DNA of 64,000 nt from Sulfurimonas sp. SAG-AH-194-C21. Its GTDB lineage: Bacteria > Campylobacterota > Campylobacteria > Campylobacterales > Sulfurimonadaceae. How positions within the stretch are numbered: the stretch's first letter is position 1; each line of letters begins with the position of its first letter. This document shows positions 2,028-12,380 of the stretch, one piece after another. The translations under genes were made by a program, and so were the position numbers. The DNA lies in contig NZ_JAEMVC010000006.1 in assembly GCF_029215985.1 (NCBI RefSeq), positions 1-64,000 on the forward strand. Direction: 5' to 3'. The notes under the pieces were generated by a model that was not told where the DNA came from, ran no database searches, and was given only the letters and a program-made list of their open reading frames with translations.

Positions 2028-3503
2028 TTACTCAACAGTAAATTGTCCCATCATTCCGGCATCTTCATGCTCTAAAAAGTGGCAATGATACATATATGGC
2101 AATGTAGTATCTGTATAGTCTGTCATTTTGATCAAAATTCTTACCTTTTCATTTGGTGGAATTATAACTGTGTCTTTATAGCCTTTCTCATTTTCAGCCA
2201 CAGCACTTGCTAAGCCATTTCTATCTAAAACTCTAAAATGACTCGCATGAATATGAAAGTTATGTGTCGCATTCATAGTGTTTGTCACTTCCCATACTTC
2301 TGTCTGATTCACAGGTACTCTTTCATCGATTCTATCTATATCCATCTCTTTATTATTGATAGTTAATATTGGATTTCCTCCACCTGTGCCCTCTAAAGTA
2401 AAGAGTCGAGTTTTGGCAGATAAGCTTTCATCAACAACATCAAGTGTACCTGTTAAAGTTGATGGTAAGTTCTGCACAGCACTAGCAGTGTTTCCAACAT
2501 TTATAGAGAGTATCGTAGCGCTTCTTGCATCAATGGTCTCTGTCACATTTAATTTTATAGTTGAGTTACTATCCCCTGAGAGGTCAACAACTATCTCAGC
2601 ACGCTCTCCAGGACTTAGTCTTACTTTTGCTAATGAAATAGGACTCGATAAAAAAGAGTTGTCTCCTGCTATCTGAGAAAATCCTCTTCCATCACTAAAA
2701 CTAAAGTCATATACACCCGCATTACTTCCATTAAGAAGTCTCAGTCTTAAAAGACCAGTTTTTGCATCAAAAATAGGATTTACTTGACCATTTACAATGA
2801 AAATATCCCCACGATAACCTCGCATGATATCTCTATTAGTTGGATTATAACTGAGCTCTCCATTGTCATCAAAAATACGGTCTTGCACGACAAGAGGTAT
2901 ATCATCCACTCCATATGTTTTTGGTAGTGCTAAAGCTTGACTTTCACTATCTTCAAGAATTATCATACCGGCTAAACCTTTGTAAACATGCTCTGCTGTT
3001 TTACCCATTAAGTGAGGATGGTACCAGTTTGTACATGCTTTTTGATTCACAGTATAGGTCGCTTTTAAACTAGAACCTGCGACAATTTTTTGATGAGGAC
3101 CACCATCCATACTAGCTGGAAGATGCATACCATGTCCATGTATAGTTGTGTCTTCTTTTAAATTATTTTGGTAAGTAATATCGACCTTATCTCCATCTTT
3201 AAGAAGAAGTGTTGGACCTAAGAGACTTCCATTTATCCCATATGTTTGAGTCTTTACTTCATTATAAAATGAGTGTGAGCTCTCTTGGATAGTCAAATTA
3301 TAACTCTTTACTCCCGTTATAGCATCTGCTGTAGGGTCTAATAATGTAGGAATGTTAAGAGGATCTCCTGTTTTTAAAGTCAGTGTAGCTGGAGTTGTGG
3401 GAGTTGGAGCGGGTGTACTACTTCCACTATCACTACTACCACAACCCGTCATTAAGAACAGTGCAGTAACTGCACTTAATTCTATAAAATTTCTTCTTTG
3501 CAT
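2028..3503 (-). CDS. Periplasmic multicopper oxidase (CueO/CotA/laccase-like)
   Basis: A 491-aa protein with all the copper motifs of a three-domain multicopper oxidase: HGHGMHLP and WYHPHL near the N-terminus, and HNFHIHASHF and MYHCHFLEHED near the C-terminus, the last giving the type 1 Cys/His and nearby Met ligands. The N-terminus starts QRRNFIELSA, like a Tat twin-arginine motif, and then reaches MTGCGSS, which resembles a lipobox, so export and lipid anchoring are likely. A Ser/Pro/Thr-rich linker follows. Substrate cannot be told; cuprous copper, metals or phenols are the family's usual choices. A good RBS (AAGGATAG) precedes the ATG, and a 64-bp AT-rich gap upstream may hold its own promoter. 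It sits between addB and addA, an unusual place. Confidence 0.92.
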   Translation of the reverse strand: MQRRNFIELSAVTALFLMTGCGSSDSGSSTPAPTPTTPATLTLKTGDPLNIPTLLDPTADAITGVKSYNLTIQESSHSFYNEVKTQTYGINGSLLGPTLLLKDGDKVDITYQNNLKEDTTIHGHGMHLPASMDGGPHQKIVAGSSLKATYTVNQKACTNWYHPHLMGKTAEHVYKGLAGMIILEDSESQALALPKTYGVDDIPLVVQDRIFDDNGELSYNPTNRDIMRGYRGDIFIVNGQVNPIFDAKTGLLRLRLLNGSNAGVYDFSFSDGRGFSQIAGDNSFLSSPISLAKVRLSPGERAEIVVDLSGDSNSTIKLNVTETIDARSATILSINVGNTASAVQNLPSTLTGTLDVVDESLSAKTRLFTLEGTGGGNPILTINNKEMDIDRIDERVPVNQTEVWEVTNTMNATHNFHIHASHFRVLDRNGLASAVAENEKGYKDTVIIPPNEKVRILIKMTDYTDTTLPYMYHCHFLEHEDAGMMGQFTVE

Positions 3504-3567: not shown

Positions 3568-5913
3568 TTAATCTCGTCCGCACATTACAGCATATTCACA
3601 GTATTTACACTGAGCCAAATCTTCGCAGAGGATAAAGTCTATAGACTCAACTTGAAGCAGATCTTTTATGTGAGACTGTAGTATCTCTAGCTTTTCATTT
3701 AAAAAGGCTTCAGGTACTATTTCCACTTCTTTTAAGTCATAAAAAGCACAGCTTGTCACATCACCTAGTGCTTGCGTTAAAAGATAGTAGAACTCTAACT
3801 GAAAGTCTGTTGCCTCTGTAAAGTTGTTTTTATTATAAAGTTTATACGAGCCTGTTTTATAATCAAGCACTTCTATCTCATTATCGCGTTTATCTACTCT
3901 ATCTATCTGACCCATAAGCGTCATACCTGCATACTCAACACTAAAACTCTCTTCACAAGAGTAAACCTCAAAACCATCTGTAAATCTTTGTATCTCTTTT
4001 GCATAAAATTTTTGCAGTCGTTTTTTTTGTAAACTAATGAGATACTTATCAAGTTCACTTTTTCCACACTGTATATCTAACTCTTTTTCTAAGTCTTTTT
4101 GTAACTCTCTAGCATCTTCATAAGAGTTTTTCTTTGAGTAGACTTCCTTGAGTGCTAAATGCACTACATTTCCAATCTCATACTCTTGGGGTACATCTTG
4201 AGGTATATCATGCCCATACAATTTTTGGATATATTTATGATAATACCTGCGTTTACAAGTGAGATAAGTTTTTAGTCTAGTAGCTGAAAGTTTTACATCT
4301 TTAAAACTATAATCCAGCGCGATACTTACAGGTTCAACTACACTCTTTTTTTCGCGTTTAAAAAGAATATTTGCATAGTCTAACTCTTCATGTATTTTCT
4401 CATCTTTTATACTAAGCTGTTTTAAAAACCTCGAAGCAGAACTTTCGCTTGAGTTCACAAAACATAAAGCCACTTCTTTAGAAGAGTTAATTAGCATCTC
4501 ATAATAGTGCTTTTGCAAGTTCTCTCTATCACTCATAGTTGGAAGGTTTGCATTTTCTCGCACTGCTGTATTTAAAAACATATCTTTATCACTGCGTTTA
4601 GGTACATTTTTATCATCAAAGTCCATAATGATGACAGCATCAAACGCCACACTTCTAGTCTCAAGTACACCCATGACAGTAACCTTACCACCACGAACAT
4701 CATCTAAAGTTCGTCCAGCTAGTCTTTGCATAAACAGACTCAGTAGAGACTTGATGTTCATCTCTTGCATAAAAGATATTATTTTCTCAAAACTATACAA
4801 CTCTTCATTAAAAATCTTCAACTCTTTTTTATCATGAATAAACTCACAAATTTCAGATAAAAAAGCTATAAAGTCTATCTCTTTTAGGCTACTCTTGTAA
4901 ATACTTCTGAGCTTTTCATAAAGTTCATCTCCAACTCTATTCAACCTCGCATAATTTTCTTGTGAATCAAGATCTAGCCTTTTTATACTTGCATTTAGTT
5001 TGATATAAATATCACTAGCAACAAAAGGCTCACCCATCGCAAAGTTAAAGTTACACTTCTCATCAAATATCTTCAACATTGAAGTTCTACTCTCATCAGG
5101 AAGTATTACTGCAATATTTTCTGCTTTATAACCTTTTTGCACAAATTCATATATCTTCTTTTTAACAAATGAAACTTGCAAAAGAGCTTCGCTAAAACTC
5201 TCACACTCTACATTTTCATTTTTAATTACTTTGTTTTTTTCGAGTACTTTTTTATCATTTAAAGATATAAGATATTCATATCCAGCTTCTAACTCTATAC
5301 CTAAGTCTAAAAATCGTGTCTGCATTTTTGTGTTAAAAGCACTTGTTGTAAACTCTATTTGTAATTCTGCAAAGTTAGTATAAGTCTCTAATAACTCAAA
5401 CTCAAAGTTTGTCAGATGTCCTGCGATCTTTACTCTAGTATCTTGATGATTTTTTGCATAGGCTTCATTAAACTCATAAAGTTTTGGTAAAAAAATTCTA
5501 TCAAGATATTTTCTCTCATTACAAAGTTTTTCATAGCGTTTATAAAGTTCTATAAGGATAGTTATATGCTCTTCATACTCAGCATATAAATCAGCAGAGG
5601 CCAACTCATTTATATCATATAACTCAGCAGATATTTCCTCAAAAAACTTAAATATATAAGAACTGTTTTTGGTAAAAGTAAAGAAGTTTCTCTCGATTTG
5701 TAGGTTAGAGAATTCAGAAAAATCTGAAGCTTCTAAAAGTAGTAACACACGACTATCTTCATCTATAAACTGATAGCCATTCACAATACATAACTGTGAA
5801 ATAAAATCGCTCATAGTTATGTAGTTTGGGAGGAAAAGGGATTCTTCGCGAAGTTGCAATTGCTGGTCTCTGATTGCGCGAGCAGAGGGTAGTACTAAAG
5901 TTCTCTCATCCAC
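3568..5913 (-). CDS. addB: AddB-like PD-(D/E)XK exonuclease
   Basis: A 781-aa protein. The C-terminal third has the RecB/AddB nuclease signature: GQIDRVDKRDNEIEVLDYKTGSYK carries the D...(D/E)XK residues. A cysteine in TYLTCKRRYY together with the terminal cluster (CEDLAQCKYCEYAVMC) matches the four-cysteine iron-sulfur staple of AddB nucleases. The N-terminal two thirds look like an inactive helicase fold (for example KVTVMGVLETRSVAFDAVIIMDFDD resembles motif IV/V of UvrD proteins), and no Walker A is present, as expected for AddB. It should act with the AddA-like helicase encoded two genes downstream on the same strand. It starts 11 bp after the FixH stop, so the addB-MCO-addA run may be read from the cbb3 region or from an internal promoter. 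Confidence 0.88.
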   Translation of the reverse strand: MDERTLVLPSARAIRDQQLQLREESLFLPNYITMSDFISQLCIVNGYQFIDEDSRVLLLLEASDFSEFSNLQIERNFFTFTKNSSYIFKFFEEISAELYDINELASADLYAEYEEHITILIELYKRYEKLCNERKYLDRIFLPKLYEFNEAYAKNHQDTRVKIAGHLTNFEFELLETYTNFAELQIEFTTSAFNTKMQTRFLDLGIELEAGYEYLISLNDKKVLEKNKVIKNENVECESFSEALLQVSFVKKKIYEFVQKGYKAENIAVILPDESRTSMLKIFDEKCNFNFAMGEPFVASDIYIKLNASIKRLDLDSQENYARLNRVGDELYEKLRSIYKSSLKEIDFIAFLSEICEFIHDKKELKIFNEELYSFEKIISFMQEMNIKSLLSLFMQRLAGRTLDDVRGGKVTVMGVLETRSVAFDAVIIMDFDDKNVPKRSDKDMFLNTAVRENANLPTMSDRENLQKHYYEMLINSSKEVALCFVNSSESSASRFLKQLSIKDEKIHEELDYANILFKREKKSVVEPVSIALDYSFKDVKLSATRLKTYLTCKRRYYHKYIQKLYGHDIPQDVPQEYEIGNVVHLALKEVYSKKNSYEDARELQKDLEKELDIQCGKSELDKYLISLQKKRLQKFYAKEIQRFTDGFEVYSCEESFSVEYAGMTLMGQIDRVDKRDNEIEVLDYKTGSYKLYNKNNFTEATDFQLEFYYLLTQALGDVTSCAFYDLKEVEIVPEAFLNEKLEILQSHIKDLLQVESIDFILCEDLAQCKYCEYAVMCGRD

Positions 5914-5924
5914 AATATTATGCC

Positions 5925-6425
5925 TTAGAACTCATACGATCTTGGGTTTCGAGTGTCTGTTTTAATATTTAAAAAACGTTCTATATCATCTATACTCACT
6001 TTAGCAATTATATTCCACACACCTTGTTTTGGAAACTTCTCCATAGTAAAGCTATAAACACCATTATCTACACTAGGATTTTCTAATGTCTTATCAAACT
6101 TATCGGTCTCTGGTCTACTTATGGCGATTTTTATCGTAGCATTATTCAAAACTGTACCATCTTTAGTAGTCACTCTGTATGCGATAACTGGAGAATCACC
6201 TGATATTTTTCCTGTAATATATTCGATTTTATAAAGTATATCAAACGCCATTCTTTTTTTGATAAAGTCGTTAGCGTTTAAGTCTGCATCTTGATACTTT
6301 GTCATATAAGCATCACTCTCTTGAATTGCAGAACTCTCTGTAATAAAAATAGTCGCGATACAAAAGCTAAATACTAATGTAATAGCAGCGCCGATGGCAT
6401 AAGGCCAAGCTCTTCCTTTACTCAT
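5925..6425 (-). CDS. fixH: FixH-family protein, cbb3 oxidase accessory
   Basis: A small membrane protein of about 166 aa: one N-terminal transmembrane helix (YAIGAAITLVFSFCIATIFI) followed by a periplasmic beta-rich domain ending in GVWNIIAKVSID, which is typical of FixH/CcoH-type proteins. Family knowledge: FixH/CcoH assists assembly or stability of cbb3 oxidase. The track starts at 6428, but the first ATG is only 3 nt from the GGAG and the second (6423-6425) is 6 nt away, so I take the second. It overlaps the preceding TPM-like gene by 8 bp and is the last gene of the ccoNOQP cluster. Confidence 0.75.
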   Translation of the reverse strand: MSKGRAWPYAIGAAITLVFSFCIATIFITESSAIQESDAYMTKYQDADLNANDFIKKRMAFDILYKIEYITGKISGDSPVIAYRVTTKDGTVLNNATIKIAISRPETDKFDKTLENPSVDNGVYSFTMEKFPKQGVWNIIAKVSIDDIERFLNIKTDTRNPRSYEF

Positions 6426-7131
6426 CATCTGCTCCTTTTTTCTTGAACTTGTTTCTTAAGTATAAAAATAGAGCATACAATAAAAAACCATAAAAAAGTG
6501 TTTTTATAATCATCAAAGGGTATTGTGAAGATTCACTTACACCATTATCTAAAGTCAAGTCATGTGCCGAAGCCACCTGCATAGATATGTCTAAGTAGCC
6601 ATTATACATGGCTGCTGAATACTTACCAGTTTGATCACCCTTAACCTTGTTACCAAGGAGAGGTAATATCGATCCGCCTGAGTTACTCATAAGCTCTTTT
6701 ATATCATCAAAACTTCTAGCAAAGAGAACAGAGATAAAAAAAGCTTGAACCGGTGATGCTACAGGACTTAGCACTTGGTTTTTATTAAAATATTTATATA
6801 AAGAGACATCACTTGTCCAGATATTTACATTTTTATCAAGTTCTGAGAACATTAAAACTATTGTAGGTTTTGAGAACTCTGAAAGCAGTTCTTTTTCATA
6901 AACTTCTATCGTTTGATTTTGCGGTACTTCTTTAAGCATTACTAGCTTTAAAGCAACTCCTGTTTTATCAAAAAGTTCTGAACCTAAGGTCTCAATATTT
7001 TGTGCGAACTTATCATTATGTATTATTTCATCTTTATATAAATACTCTGCTCCAACTTCTGTTTGAAAAAAAATGGTGATTATAAGGGCAAGAAGCCCTT
7101 TAATAAATTTGTGCAACTTAAACCTAACCAA
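6418..7131 (-). CDS. TPM-domain-like membrane protein in the cbb3 operon
   Basis: A 237-aa protein with an N-terminal signal sequence (FIKGLLALIITIFFQ), a soluble domain of about 110 residues that resembles the TPM domain (ETLGSELFDKTGVALKLVML), and a C-terminal transmembrane helix followed by a basic tail (RNKFKKKGADDE). Its topology suggests an anchored periplasmic domain. The start is unclear: the track uses TTG at 7129-7131, which overlaps the stop of the 29-aa gene by 8 bp, but a TTG at 7114-7116 has a better spaced TTAGG. The role is not known; position inside the cbb3 cluster suggests oxidase assembly or membrane quality control, by inference only. Confidence 0.65.
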   Translation of the reverse strand: MVRFKLHKFIKGLLALIITIFFQTEVGAEYLYKDEIIHNDKFAQNIETLGSELFDKTGVALKLVMLKEVPQNQTIEVYEKELLSEFSKPTIVLMFSELDKNVNIWTSDVSLYKYFNKNQVLSPVASPVQAFFISVLFARSFDDIKELMSNSGGSILPLLGNKVKGDQTGKYSAAMYNGYLDISMQVASAHDLTLDNGVSESSQYPLMIIKTLFYGFLLYALFLYLRNKFKKKGADDE

Positions 7132-7213
7132 TATAAAGGTGGTTTGGTGTAAGTACAGCGTAAAGAGTAAAAGCAGCCATAAGAACTAACCCTAATGCAA
7201 TAAGCTTATCCAT
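7124..7213 (-). CDS. 29-aa membrane microprotein inside the cbb3 operon (not in ORF track)
   Basis: Reading the 80-bp gap between DUF4006 and the TPM-like gene gives an ATG ORF of 29 codons beginning MDKLIALGLVLMAAFTLYAV and ending NHLYIG. It has one hydrophobic helix and is preceded by AGGAGTTTAGG, a strong Shine-Dalgarno. Its start is 1 bp after the DUF4006 stop and its end overlaps the next gene by 8 bp, so the spacing is exactly that of an operon gene. Size and shape are those of small oxidase subunits (CcoQ/CcoM/CydX type), but I do not recognise the sequence as any of these. Confidence 0.75.
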   Translation of the reverse strand: MDKLIALGLVLMAAFTLYAVLTPNHLYIG

Positions 7214-7214
7214 C

Positions 7215-7430
7215 CTAAACTCCTTTTACATCTATAATATGTTTTGAACTATTTGTATCAAACATCTTAATAGATTTTTCATCTTTTATATCATAATAAT
7301 CAGTTGCATGATTATTTTGAGCACCTATAGCAAAGTACATAAGAACGCCGAGTGCTATTAAAAGCACTACAACTGCGACACCAAACCCTAAAAGTCCGTC
7401 AAATGCAAAAACATTTCTAGAATCATTCAT
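7215..7430 (-). CDS. DUF4006-family small membrane protein
   Basis: A 71-aa protein with an N-terminal FAFDGLLGFGVAVVVLLIALGVLMYFAIG transmembrane region and a short polar tail containing YYDIKDE. I recognise this as the DUF4006 family found after ccoP in Campylobacterota. Its start lies 1 bp after the ccoP stop. It is probably part of cbb3 assembly or a small accessory subunit, which is inferred from this conserved position. Confidence 0.75.
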   Translation of the reverse strand: MNDSRNVFAFDGLLGFGVAVVVLLIALGVLMYFAIGAQNNHATDYYDIKDEKSIKMFDTNSSKHIIDVKGV

Positions 7431-7431
7431 C

Positions 7432-8364
7432 TTATTCTCCTTTACTTAAACTAATAATATAAGCACTCACTGCCTCTTTTTGTTTAGCATTGAGTCTATC
7501 AAACGCAGGCATAGCTCCAATAGAACCTTTTTTACCATGGTTCAATACATTTACTAAGAGTGTCGTATCGTATGATGCAATATTTGGAGCAAGATCACTA
7601 ATACCTTTTCCATCTGTACCATGACAAGAAGCACATGCACCAGCGAATACATCTGCACCTTCACCACTCATACCATTTGCAACATAAACTGAAACAGCAT
7701 CAATTTCTGAATCTGTAATTGGAGCATAGTCTTTATTTGCATTCATTAAACCATCACGACCAGGCATTGAAGAACCTTCATTCATCAATGAGTTTGTAGA
7801 ACCATTAACAATAACATCTTTTACCGTAACCGATTCTAGTCTAACAGTTAAGTCAGCAGCTTTTCCATCAATACCATCAGCCGCAAGTCCATGACAAACT
7901 TTACACTCAGCCAAAAATACAGACTCACCCATCTCTACAAGTCTATCACCTGTAATAGATGCATACTCTTTTTCAAATTTTGCATTGTGTACAGCAACAT
8001 CTTCATTATACTCACCGATTTGTGAATATGAATTTACTGGATAACCAGCTACAAAATACCATATTCCCCAAACCATAGTTGCTAAATATATAATTGCCCA
8101 ACCTGTTGGTATGGGGTTATAGTACTCACCAATACCATCCCAATTCTCATCAGCTAAATCGCCATCTGCAGTATCTACTTGCATCTGACGAACATATTTT
8201 ATTACAACAAAAACTGTAATTATTACAAGTGCTACTGCACCTGCAACTGCAAGCATATTAACGATATCACCATTAAATCCACCCTTAGATCCAATAACTG
8301 ATACATATGTAAAAGCGAGCATTGCAACGGTAACAATAATACCCCAAAGATAAATCTTATTCAT
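7432..8364 (-). CDS. ccoP: cbb3-type cytochrome c oxidase subunit III (diheme)
   Basis: A 310-aa protein. Two N-terminal transmembrane helices (near residues 5-30 and 85-105, the second being GWAIIYLATMVWGIWYFV) lead into two cytochrome c domains with the heme sites CKVCH and CASCH. A Met ligand candidate lies in MPAFDRL. It feeds electrons from soluble cytochrome c to CcoO and CcoN. It is the fourth gene of the ccoNOQP order, 9 bp after ccoQ. The N-terminus has two helices, as in Campylobacterota CcoP, rather than the single helix of many Proteobacteria. Confidence 0.96.
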   Translation of the reverse strand: MNKIYLWGIIVTVAMLAFTYVSVIGSKGGFNGDIVNMLAVAGAVALVIITVFVVIKYVRQMQVDTADGDLADENWDGIGEYYNPIPTGWAIIYLATMVWGIWYFVAGYPVNSYSQIGEYNEDVAVHNAKFEKEYASITGDRLVEMGESVFLAECKVCHGLAADGIDGKAADLTVRLESVTVKDVIVNGSTNSLMNEGSSMPGRDGLMNANKDYAPITDSEIDAVSVYVANGMSGEGADVFAGACASCHGTDGKGISDLAPNIASYDTTLLVNVLNHGKKGSIGAMPAFDRLNAKQKEAVSAYIISLSKGE

Positions 8365-8373
8365 ATATCTCTC

Positions 8374-8577
8374 CTATTTTTTTTTCTTGCTAGATGTAGC
8401 ATTTACCGGAGTATCTGCTATATCATCTTTTAATGCCATATTGCTATAGTTTTCATAATCGACACCATCAGCATCTTTTCTTCTGCTATATAAATGATAT
8501 ATATAAGCATAAAGTCCAATAGCTAGACCAGCTGTCATTATAAAGTAGCCATAAGCTTGTAACTGAGCAATATCCAT
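8374..8577 (-). CDS. ccoQ: cbb3-type oxidase small subunit IV
   Basis: A 67-aa protein with one transmembrane helix (YGYFIMTAGLAIGLYAYIYHLY) followed by a short charged tail that ends in a lysine run (SSKKKK). Position between ccoO and ccoP and size identify it as CcoQ, which stabilises the assembled oxidase in other bacteria. It follows ccoO by 11 bp. Confidence 0.88.
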   Translation of the reverse strand: MDIAQLQAYGYFIMTAGLAIGLYAYIYHLYSRRKDADGVDYENYSNMALKDDIADTPVNATSSKKKK

Positions 8578-8588
8578 GTTTTAACCTT

Positions 8589-9281
8589 TTACTTAAGACT
8601 ATTCATATATGCAATAATTGCAACAATCTCTGGAATCTTACCACTTGCTACAGCATCTTTGATATCTTGATCTTTCATATCAGCAACTATCACTTTTGCC
8701 TCTTCTAAAGCCAAGGCATTTGCCTCTGCAATAGAGTCTCCCATCTTAATAATTTTACTACTTCCATCTTTCATAGGAATAGGCGTATTATAAGGTGTTG
8801 AGAAGAACTGTGCTATTGTTAACTGCTCAGCGTATGCTGTTGCAACATCTGTTTCGTTCTCATATAACCAAGTGTATTTCGGCATGATTGAACCAGGAAC
8901 AACGGCAGCTGGGTCTTTCATATGATTTTCATGCCAGTCAGTTGTACGGTAGTTACCTACACGCATCAAGTCTGGACCAGTACGTTTTGAACCCCAAAGA
9001 AATGGTCTGTCATATGCATACTCACCACTTAATGAGTAGTGACCATAACGGTCAGTCTCTGATTTAAATGGACGAATAAGTTGTGAATGACAGGCATTAC
9101 AAGAATTTTTAATATAGACATGACGTCCTGCTAACTCTAAAGTTGAGTAGGGAGCAGTCCCTACTAATGGTCGTGATGCTTGAGCAAAGTTTGGAACGAT
9201 TTCTACTAAACCAGCAAATGCAATCACAACAAAGACACTCAATGCAAAAAAGAACGGATGTTTTTCTAACCAATGAAACAT
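8589..9281 (-). CDS. ccoO: cbb3-type cytochrome c oxidase subunit II (monoheme)
   Basis: A 230-aa protein with an N-terminal anchor (FFFALSVFVVIAFAGLVEI) and a single heme c site CNACH in YIKNSCNACHSQLIRPF, the CcoO signature. A later Met in SIMPKYTWLY is the likely axial ligand. Length and motif match the FixO/CcoO family. It passes electrons from CcoP to CcoN and lies 15 bp after ccoN. Confidence 0.96.
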   Translation of the reverse strand: MFHWLEKHPFFFALSVFVVIAFAGLVEIVPNFAQASRPLVGTAPYSTLELAGRHVYIKNSCNACHSQLIRPFKSETDRYGHYSLSGEYAYDRPFLWGSKRTGPDLMRVGNYRTTDWHENHMKDPAAVVPGSIMPKYTWLYENETDVATAYAEQLTIAQFFSTPYNTPIPMKDGSSKIIKMGDSIAEANALALEEAKVIVADMKDQDIKDAVASGKIPEIVAIIAYMNSLK

Positions 9282-9296
9282 AATATAATCCTTTTA

Positions 9297-10793
9297 CTAA
9301 GCGCCCATAGGCGATGCATTTTGTAAATCTGACTCTTCAACACGAGGAGCAGATGTAGTTTTATAAATATTGTATACGAACATAACAAAACCAATTAGGT
9401 ACAGAGTACCACCAACAGCACGAATCGTATAATAAGGGTGCAATACAGTAACTGTATCGATGAATGAGTAAGCTAAGTTACCAAATTCATCGTGTGCACG
9501 CCACATCATACCTTGAGTGATTCCTGCGATCCACATAGATGTGAAGTATAAAACAACACCTAATGTTTGAATCCAAAACTGCATATTCATTAAACTTCTT
9601 GAGTAAATCTCACGTCTAAAGATACGAGGAGCCATATGATAAATAGCTGCAATAACCATAAATCCAACCCAACCAAGAGCACCATCATGAACATGACCGA
9701 TAATCCAGTCAGTAAAGTGAGCAATAGCATTAACAGATTTGATAGCTTGAATAGGACCTTCTAATGTTGAGAACATGTAAAAAGTAGACCCGAGAACCAT
9801 AAACTTAATCAATGGAGATGAAGCCACTTGTTGCCACTCACCTTTCATTGTAAGTAGCATGTTAATCGCTGAACCCCATGAAGGAAGAATAAGAATTACT
9901 GAAAATATTGAACCCATAGTCTGCATCCAATCCGGAACAGTTGAATAAAGAAGGTGATGACCACCAGCCCAGATATAAACGAACATTAATCCCCAAAACG
10001 AAAGTAAAGACAATTTATAAGAATAAATCGCTTGACCTGACTCTTTAGGTAAAAAGTAGTAAATCATCGCAATGATTGGAGTTGTTAAAACAAAAGCAAC
10101 TGCGTTATGACCAAACCACCACTGAACAAGTGCATCATTAGTTCCAGCATACATAGATACTGAATGCCACCATGCACCAATCATTGTCTCACCAGCTGGT
10201 GAAGTAGCAATGATAGTTGGAATTTCCATATTATTAAAGAGGTGAAGCATCGCAACTGCTAAAAATGTAGCAATGTAATACCAAACTGAAATATAAAGAC
10301 TCTTTTCACGTCTATAACCAACAAGTCCTGCAATACCAGCACCCCATAGTAACCATACAACTGTAATAGCTAAATCAATAGGCCACTCAAACTCTGCATA
10401 CTCTTTAGATGTAGTAATACCCATAAGTAAAGATGCAACAATAACTGCAGAAGCAGCAAAGTACAACCAAAAATGCAGTTTACCCATAAACATCAATGTT
10501 TTAGACTCTGCCATTGATACCTTAAGTACACGTTGACCAACATAGTACCATGATGCCCAAACAGCACTCAGTACAAAACCATAAATCACACTATCCGTAT
10601 GTAGAGGTCTTAGACGGCTAAAGTTAGTATATTCAGCTAAGTCTTCCCCTAAAAAAGTATTAAACTCTGGATACGCCATTTGCCATGCTAATATAACCCC
10701 TATAAGCATACCAATTGTCCCTACAAATAGTGCATTCATTATAAACAACTTAGAAACACTATAGTCGTATTCTAATGGACCATTCTTATTCAT
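9297..10793 (-). CDS. ccoN: cbb3-type cytochrome c oxidase catalytic subunit I
   Basis: A 498-aa, roughly 12-helix protein of the C-family heme-copper oxidases. Visible ligand regions include LRPLHTDSVIYGF (low-spin heme His), WWFGHNAVAFVLT (CuB His), AGGHHLLYS (CuB His pair) and DWIIGHVHDGALGWVGF (heme His pair). It reduces oxygen to water at high affinity and pumps protons. It is first in the operon, with a strong AAGGAG 7 nt before the ATG and a 131-bp AT-rich upstream gap that must carry the promoter. Confidence 0.97.
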   Translation of the reverse strand: MNKNGPLEYDYSVSKLFIMNALFVGTIGMLIGVILAWQMAYPEFNTFLGEDLAEYTNFSRLRPLHTDSVIYGFVLSAVWASWYYVGQRVLKVSMAESKTLMFMGKLHFWLYFAASAVIVASLLMGITTSKEYAEFEWPIDLAITVVWLLWGAGIAGLVGYRREKSLYISVWYYIATFLAVAMLHLFNNMEIPTIIATSPAGETMIGAWWHSVSMYAGTNDALVQWWFGHNAVAFVLTTPIIAMIYYFLPKESGQAIYSYKLSLLSFWGLMFVYIWAGGHHLLYSTVPDWMQTMGSIFSVILILPSWGSAINMLLTMKGEWQQVASSPLIKFMVLGSTFYMFSTLEGPIQAIKSVNAIAHFTDWIIGHVHDGALGWVGFMVIAAIYHMAPRIFRREIYSRSLMNMQFWIQTLGVVLYFTSMWIAGITQGMMWRAHDEFGNLAYSFIDTVTVLHPYYTIRAVGGTLYLIGFVMFVYNIYKTTSAPRVEESDLQNASPMGA

Positions 10794-10924: not shown

Positions 10925-11425
10925 TTAATTATCTTTTGTCATTGCAGCTAGTAAATCACTATTCTCTTCTTGCATTTGAGAAAATGATGCTTTTAATTTT
11001 TCCTGTAATACTTCATCACTCAAGTTATCACCTGCGAACTCACTATAATGTTTAAAAAAATCACTATAAGGTGTAATACCTACAGCAAGCACCATATTAA
11101 GGTCTACATCACTAAAATATGTCTTCCAAGATGGTGTTATTTTTTTGATAACACTTTTTCTATTCATATAAATAATTATAAACACTATCATCATCATAAT
11201 GGACATAAAAACTATAAACATAACTATCTGAGTAACTAGTCCAACTTTTTCATAAACATAATCATTAAAAATAGCAAAAAACTCCATAAAAGGCATTGCC
11301 AGAATAATAGCTTTAATAACTAGACTACTCATACCACCAATAGGTGCACCATTATAGAGACTTAGTTTTTTTCCATTTTTGTTTGTAAAGGTAGATAGTA
11401 TCGATTTGAGGGGGTAAGTTGACAT
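10925..11425 (-). CDS. Conserved-looking membrane protein of unknown function
   Basis: A 166-aa protein with two or three hydrophobic helices (VIKAIILAMPFMEFFAIF and VTQIVMFIVFMSIMMMIVFIIIYM) and a charged C-terminal half rich in helix-forming residues. I do not recognise the family. It sits alone between the ctaB terminator and the ccoN promoter region, transcribed in the same direction as both oxidase operons, so an oxidase-related role is possible but only by context. Confidence 0.6.
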   Translation of the reverse strand: MSTYPLKSILSTFTNKNGKKLSLYNGAPIGGMSSLVIKAIILAMPFMEFFAIFNDYVYEKVGLVTQIVMFIVFMSIMMMIVFIIIYMNRKSVIKKITPSWKTYFSDVDLNMVLAVGITPYSDFFKHYSEFAGDNLSDEVLQEKLKASFSQMQEENSDLLAAMTKDN

Positions 11426-11484: not shown

Positions 11485-11514
11485 TTAGAAAATAGAGGAA
11501 ACTCTATTTTCTAA
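11485..11514 (-). terminator. Hairpin terminator of the cox operon
   Basis: A perfect 13-bp inverted repeat (TTAGAAAATAGAG / CTCTATTTTCTAA) with a 4-nt loop overlaps the ctaB stop codon. On the minus strand it is followed by ACTTTTAG, a weak T-stretch. It probably ends the coxA-ctaB transcript. Confidence 0.75.
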
Positions 11515-12380
11515 GATAATGCATTAAATTTTAACATCTCATCAATAGTAACTAAAATAATAGTTAATAAAAATGCAGCATTAATTTGGTAAAAAACTTT
11601 TCTTGCATGTTTGAGTTCAAAACTTTTATATAAAAGTTGTAAACTACTAGCAAAGCCAAGCAATCCAGTTATTACAAGTAATATCATAATTACATCACTT
11701 GCTGGATTAAATATGCTAACCATAAAAATACCAGTTTGTATAGTAAAAATAAGCCATACAAAAGTAAGCTTTTGTAATGTGTTTCTTCCAAAAAGACGCA
11801 TTGCTGTTGGATATCCACCATTATCATAATCACCATAAAACAGCATAACAAGTAACCAGAAATGTGGTACCTGCCATACAAAGTAAAAAAGACCTAAGGC
11901 ATAAAACTCAACTTCTCCTAAACCATGTCCAGCTGTAATCCAACCAATAGCGGGAGGAATAACACCTAAAATAGCACCAGGAACAACAGCTAAAGCACTT
12001 TTCTTCTTTAAAGGAGTATATACAATGTTATACCAAATAAATGCAAATAAAAATAAATTTACACCTACCATTCCAATAATCGAGTAAATTAATGCAAGTG
12101 AAGAGAGAATTAAAATAACAGCAATAATAACACCTGAAAGTGGTGACCACTTTCCAGATGCAATTGGTCTGTTTTTTGTGCGTTCCATTAAAGCATCTTC
12201 TTTATACTCTTGCACCTGATTAAGAGTTGAAACTCCCATCGCTACAAGAAGTACAGCAAGAGTTGAGAGGAACATGTCCGCTCCTATCTCACCTTTTGCC
12301 ATAATATAGGCAAAAAGTGCAGATAGACTTACTGCAAAAGAGAGAACAAACTTCGTAAGAATTCTAAGGTCTCTAAGCAT
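11511..12380 (-). CDS. ctaB: Protoheme IX farnesyltransferase (heme O synthase)
   Basis: A 289-aa UbiA-family prenyltransferase with many transmembrane helices and the family motif NQVQEYKEDALMERTKNRPI, which carries the Asp/Glu residues that bind Mg-farnesyl diphosphate. A second conserved region is YTPLKKKSALAVVPGAILGV. It farnesylates heme B to heme O for the neighbouring oxidase. Start and coxB stop overlap as TAATG, so translation is coupled. No heme A synthase (ctaA) is in the window. Confidence 0.94.
   Translation of the reverse strand: MLRDLRILTKFVLSFAVSLSALFAYIMAKGEIGADMFLSTLAVLLVAMGVSTLNQVQEYKEDALMERTKNRPIASGKWSPLSGVIIAVILILSSLALIYSIIGMVGVNLFLFAFIWYNIVYTPLKKKSALAVVPGAILGVIPPAIGWITAGHGLGEVEFYALGLFYFVWQVPHFWLLVMLFYGDYDNGGYPTAMRLFGRNTLQKLTFVWLIFTIQTGIFMVSIFNPASDVIMILLVITGLLGFASSLQLLYKSFELKHARKVFYQINAAFLLTIILVTIDEMLKFNALS

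Follow-up and report, generated by a model that had tools for sequence, protein, structure and literature searches.

A conserved 29-residue membrane protein of a Sulfurimonas cbb3 oxidase operon identified as the ortholog of Campylobacter jejuni CcoY

Introduction

The closest described system is the operon for the low-oxygen cbb3-type oxidase of Campylobacter jejuni, which Garg et al. 2021 give as ccoNOQP-ccoX-ccoY-ccoZ-ccoH: ccoX (cj1486c) encodes a DUF4006 protein, ccoY is cj1485c, and ccoZ (cj1484c) encodes a TPM-domain protein (PMC8267372). C. jejuni CcoY (Cj1485) has 33 residues and one central membrane helix. Deletion of ccoX or ccoH abolished cbb3 activity; deletion of ccoY or ccoZ lowered it without abolishing it, and copper did not rescue the defect (PMC8267372).

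Two details of this published work bear on how the phenotype is read. The cassette in the ccoY mutant has a promoter and no terminator (PMC8267372); this, together with the activity that is left in the ccoY mutant and lost in the ccoH mutant, makes a strong polar effect on ccoH unlikely. Complementation of this mutant by its own gene is not mentioned in the accessible portion of the same paper. Mass spectrometry of a C. jejuni blue-native band named nine proteins, and CcoY is not among them (PMC8267372). The predicted tryptic products of CcoY comprise only one long hydrophobic peptide, which may be the reason for its absence from this list; the absence from the band thus weighs little as evidence. 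The main text of the C. jejuni Ribo-seq paper has no mention of Cj1485 or CcoY.

Results

A short gene between ccoX and ccoZ

The window analysed here is a 64,000-nucleotide stretch from Sulfurimonas sp. SAG-AH-194-C21, in which a cbb3 oxidase operon lies on the minus strand. It includes the catalytic subunit gene ccoN (9297..10793; TIGR00780 at 658.7 bits, over the cut-off, and Pfam COX1), followed by ccoO for the monohaem subunit (8589..9281; Pfam FixO, E=6e-82), ccoQ (8374..8577; Pfam FixQ, E=2.5e-12) and ccoP for the dihaem cytochrome c subunit (7432..8364; Pfam FixP_N and Cytochrome_CBB3). Next comes ccoX (7215..7430), the Cj1486 counterpart, whose 71-residue product is a DUF4006 protein (Pfam PF13179, E=1.3e-21). 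Further downstream are the Cj1484 counterpart ccoZ (6418..7116), a 232-residue TPM-fold protein when read from TTG 7116 (BLASTP E=4e-16 against C. jejuni-type CcoZ), and the ccoH/FixH-like Cj1483 counterpart (5925..6428; Pfam PF05751, E=2.8e-6). CcoZ is 84% identical to that of Sulfurimonas sp. isolate NORP9, the nearest named relative seen.

Three side observations concern this neighbourhood. CcoQ scores 60.5 bits with NCBIfam TIGR02736, whose cut-off is 61.55, so that annotation by curated family would just fail to name it. A 166-residue protein that has hydrophobic segments and matches no Pfam family convincingly is encoded at 10925-11425, flanked by ccoN and a UbiA-family gene (11511-12380). 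A multicopper oxidase gene (2028-3503) lies on the same strand further downstream, after the oxidase cluster and a PD-(D/E)XK nuclease gene (3568-5913).

Between ccoX and ccoZ, also on the minus strand, an open reading frame with an ATG start (7124..7213) encodes a 29-residue, single-helix membrane microprotein, MDKLIALGLVLMAAFTLYAVLTPNHLYIG. Its only hydrophobic segment spans residues 4-22, with a mean Kyte-Doolittle value of 2.34. The ccoX stop (7215-7217) is one base away from the ATG, and a Shine-Dalgarno sequence read from the DNA, AAGGAG (7220..7225, minus strand), lies within the 3' end of ccoX, 6 bases ahead of the start; it is kept in relatives. The original prediction of a one-helix frame with a strong Shine-Dalgarno between DUF4006 and a TPM-like gene is thus borne out in its coordinates, signal and hydrophobic segment. 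With the TTG 7116 start, ccoZ follows after a gap of 7 bases, with no overlap. In its longest form (6418-7131), the TPM-like gene starts at TTG 7131 and overlaps ccoY. This overlap probably reflects nothing more than the start chosen: the TTG that is conserved in relatives is the one equivalent to 7116, and ccoZ almost certainly starts there on comparison of these sequences.

Evidence for coding and selection

Matches to the 29-residue frame at E<=1 occur in 49 of 60 relatives, including nearly all genomes of the same genus. Almost all of the matched frames are full length, without internal stops and in the same frame within the genus, and the frame is present in more distant families of the order as well. 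Over 30 same-genus sequences, pooled pN/pS is 0.27; shuffling the codon columns of the alignment 200 times gave a null of 0.98 +/- 0.25, with a minimum of 0.54. In the same-genus alignment, variation at the three codon positions is 0.13/0.07/0.33. Because neither a lack of conservation in relatives nor a pN/pS ratio of 1 was found, the frame at 7124-7213 is a real protein-coding gene under purifying selection; the two checks that accompanied the original prediction, conservation and the ratio of synonymous to non-synonymous change, both came out in its favour.

Taken by itself, a length of 29 codons is unremarkable, and the window holds many frames of similar size, which would fit a chance frame in a short intergenic gap. 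Here, however, position, length, frame, ribosome-binding site and sequence are all conserved phylum-wide; conservation and pN/pS together rule a chance frame out, with a residual likelihood close to nil.

It is also very improbable that the frame serves mainly as a leader for translational coupling to ccoZ, so that its translation matters and its product does not. Such a role would fit the tight spacing, ccoY and ccoZ overlapping by ATGA in C. jejuni and lying 7-11 bases apart in Sulfurimonas-type genomes, but it is the amino-acid sequence that is under purifying selection, and the C-terminal motif is conserved across families.

Identity with CcoY

The 29-residue protein is identical to the 33-residue C. 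jejuni-type CcoY at 16 of 29 positions (E=2e-10), and in a profile-profile comparison the genus profile matches the Campylobacter profile with a probability of 99 (E=3.8e-18). The C. jejuni-type locus used for comparison, G150, encodes MSKALEYLIVIGLVAAAAITAWSVLTVNHLHIG in the slot between ccoX and ccoZ; its 33 residues equal the published CcoY length. Of twelve primers published for NCTC 11168, eleven match this locus exactly and the twelfth has one mismatch, and Campylobacter jejuni records encode the G150-type CcoY at 91-94% identity. Placement and shape agree too. The frame sits between ccoX (DUF4006) and ccoZ (TPM) of the ccoNOQP operon, with ccoH next, and these CcoX, CcoZ and CcoH homologues make the order ccoNOQP-X-Y-Z-H collinear with that of C. 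jejuni; its 29 residues and segment 4-22 correspond to the CcoY type, about 30-35 residues with one central hydrophobic helix. On these grounds, we identify the frame as ccoY, the Sulfurimonas-type ortholog of C. jejuni Cj1485, which places it in an already described family and not in a new one.

No entry of the Pfam, NCBIfam or PDB libraries that we searched with the 29-residue protein covers CcoY: neither Pfam nor NCBIfam gave a match at E<=1, and 32 CcoY members produced isolated weak matches to unrelated families only. These searches bear on whether CcoY is a homologue of CydX, CioY or another named family of oxidase microproteins. Such proteins are of the same kind, short, with one helix and encoded near the end of an oxidase operon; C. 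jejuni CioY, for instance, has 34 residues and serves CioAB (PMC11955535). The absence of family matches at E<=1 makes such a homology extremely unlikely, and the CydX/YbgT-type model in particular matched neither the 29-residue protein nor any of the 32 members. FixQ and TIGR02736 likewise gave no match to CcoY, the true ccoQ being the gene at 8374-8577.

Distribution across Campylobacterota

We drew 200 genomes from the phylum, applied a cut-off of E<1e-5 to the CcoY profile and compared the resulting tables by hand. DUF4006 is present in 191 of the 200. The profile matches 127 genomes, that is, 127 of the 128 DUF4006-positive genomes outside one family, f14; the sole exception, G042, has a match in the right place at E=0.002. 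The nine genomes without DUF4006 give no match at E<1e-5, and all nine also lack ccoN. Across the Campylobacterota sampled, ccoY accompanies the cbb3 operon almost without exception. Among 80 named ccoY loci, 79 carry names of Campylobacterota members and one is titled only "bacterium"; as these loci were selected with the pattern VLT[PV]NH, the uniform NHL motif there is not independent evidence.

Genomes of f14, which appears to be Helicobacteraceae-like, are not reached by the CcoY profile built from the other families. In all 16 loci read, the ccoY slot holds a single-helix protein of 33-41 residues with an invariant Glu-Lys before the helix (the divergent slot protein is recorded at L055, L068, L070, L075, L081-L084, L086 and L088-L095; at L090 we chose the start inside a longer reading). 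Profile-profile comparison of this form with CcoY gives a probability of 80 (E=1.3e-5), and the two are likely homologous. Another form is found in f9, presumably Arcobacteraceae, where CcoY retains the helix and terminal glycine and the NHL motif is absent, with tails such as FFDSSRIFVG (L051, L054, L073 and L079).

Gene order ties ccoY to ccoZ and ccoH

The ccoX-ccoY junction is interrupted in families f4 and f18 by ccoG, which encodes a cupric reductase homologue with FixG_C and Fer4 domains (L102, 3664-5133; L103, 3264-4670; L104, 2553-3974). In the single f4 locus read from end to end, ccoZ and ccoH come immediately after ccoY. As ccoY stays with ccoZ-ccoH despite the insertion, gene order favours ccoZ and ccoH over ccoX as the functional partners of CcoY.

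The AlphaFold model of CcoZ (pLDDT 84) matches TPM-domain structures. It resembles the photosynthetic TPM proteins TLP18.3 and Psb32, the latter an assembly factor of photosystem II, and weakly resembles a subunit of the mycobacterial bcc-aa3 supercomplex (E=0.017). These likenesses agree with what Garg et al. proposed (PMC8267372).

Topology and proposed role

In 73 of 74 named CcoY sequences, Lys or Arg occurs within the first nine residues, and there is none in the last 12. This charge distribution suggests that the N-terminus is inside and the C-terminal tail periplasmic: the N-terminus (Met-Asp/Glu-Lys) would lie in the cytoplasm, followed by one transmembrane helix, and the conserved VLTPNHL[FY][IV]G tail would lie on the periplasmic face. 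CcoY is most likely a single-helix accessory or assembly subunit, a prediction for which the evidence of need for activity comes from C. jejuni only. It would act late, with CcoZ and CcoH, stabilising the assembled CcoNOQP oxidase and perhaps also the contact between this oxidase and the cytochrome bc complex, in a role other than copper delivery. We give a probability of about 0.7 to this reading as a whole, in which the frame is ccoY and its helix acts late with CcoZ and CcoH to stabilise CcoNOQP and not to deliver copper.

The main rival is a permanent, stoichiometric subunit bound to CcoN or CcoP, in the manner of CcoM of Pseudomonas stutzeri and with no special tie to CcoZ. CcoM resembles CcoY in size (36 residues, PMC10433244) and in its single helix, and the strict co-occurrence of CcoY with the cbb3 operon would suit such a subunit. 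Yet ccoY remains tied to ccoZ where ccoG intervenes, CcoY has so far not been identified in the complex, and no PDB chain matched it at E<=10 with either the protein or the profile as query; the library includes 5djq, and CcoM was compared through this library alone. We consider a permanent subunit rather unlikely and prefer late assembly or stabilisation together with CcoZ and CcoH. More specifically, CcoY and CcoZ could tie the cbb3 oxidase to cytochrome bc in a supercomplex, with the periplasmic NHL tail in the contact, a proposal that we regard as doubtful. The PDB copy searched holds no structure of a Campylobacterota cbb3 oxidase or of CcoY.

Discussion

The frame had been proposed as a possible new extra subunit of the Campylobacterota cbb3 oxidase. 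Novelty falls away, as a 2021 study had already named the family and reported a knockout: in PMC8267372, the C. jejuni ortholog Cj1485 has the name ccoY and a deletion phenotype. What holds is that the cbb3 operon of Campylobacterota encodes a conserved small protein with a single helix, of the same general sort as CcoM or CydX. CcoY stays a putative subunit: it is not among the proteins named from the blue-native band, and we found no structure of a Campylobacterota cbb3 oxidase in the PDB copy searched.

To the published name and phenotype, the present analysis adds the range of ccoY across the phylum, the divergent f14 form, the gene-order tie to ccoZ-ccoH and the absence of a family model. 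A short frame is settled as a gene worth annotating and can be given a name and the phenotype published for it; none of the family models in the searched libraries would pick it up, despite its near-universal company with the cbb3 operon. Since ccoY is spread across Campylobacterota, non-pathogenic sulfur-oxidising relatives can be used for studying oxidase assembly.

Among known systems, CcoQ/FixQ is likewise a small single-helix cbb3 subunit of the same operon, but it is a separate gene with its own family. CioY and CydX share with CcoY the short single-helix form and a place at the end of a terminal-oxidase operon, whereas they belong to another enzyme class, the bd-type oxidases, and show no family match. 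CcoM of Pseudomonas stutzeri, also a short single-helix cbb3 accessory protein, is a demonstrated subunit, which CcoY is not, and comparison through the PDB library detected no sequence relationship between them. From Cj1485 itself, the Sulfurimonas protein differs in length, 29 against 33 residues with four fewer at the N-terminus, and in the junction with ccoZ, a seven-base gap and a TTG ccoZ start in place of the ATGA overlap of C. jejuni. It shares with Cj1485 the slot between ccoX (DUF4006) and ccoZ (TPM), the single helix and the V-L-T-x-N-H-L-x-[IV]-G tail.
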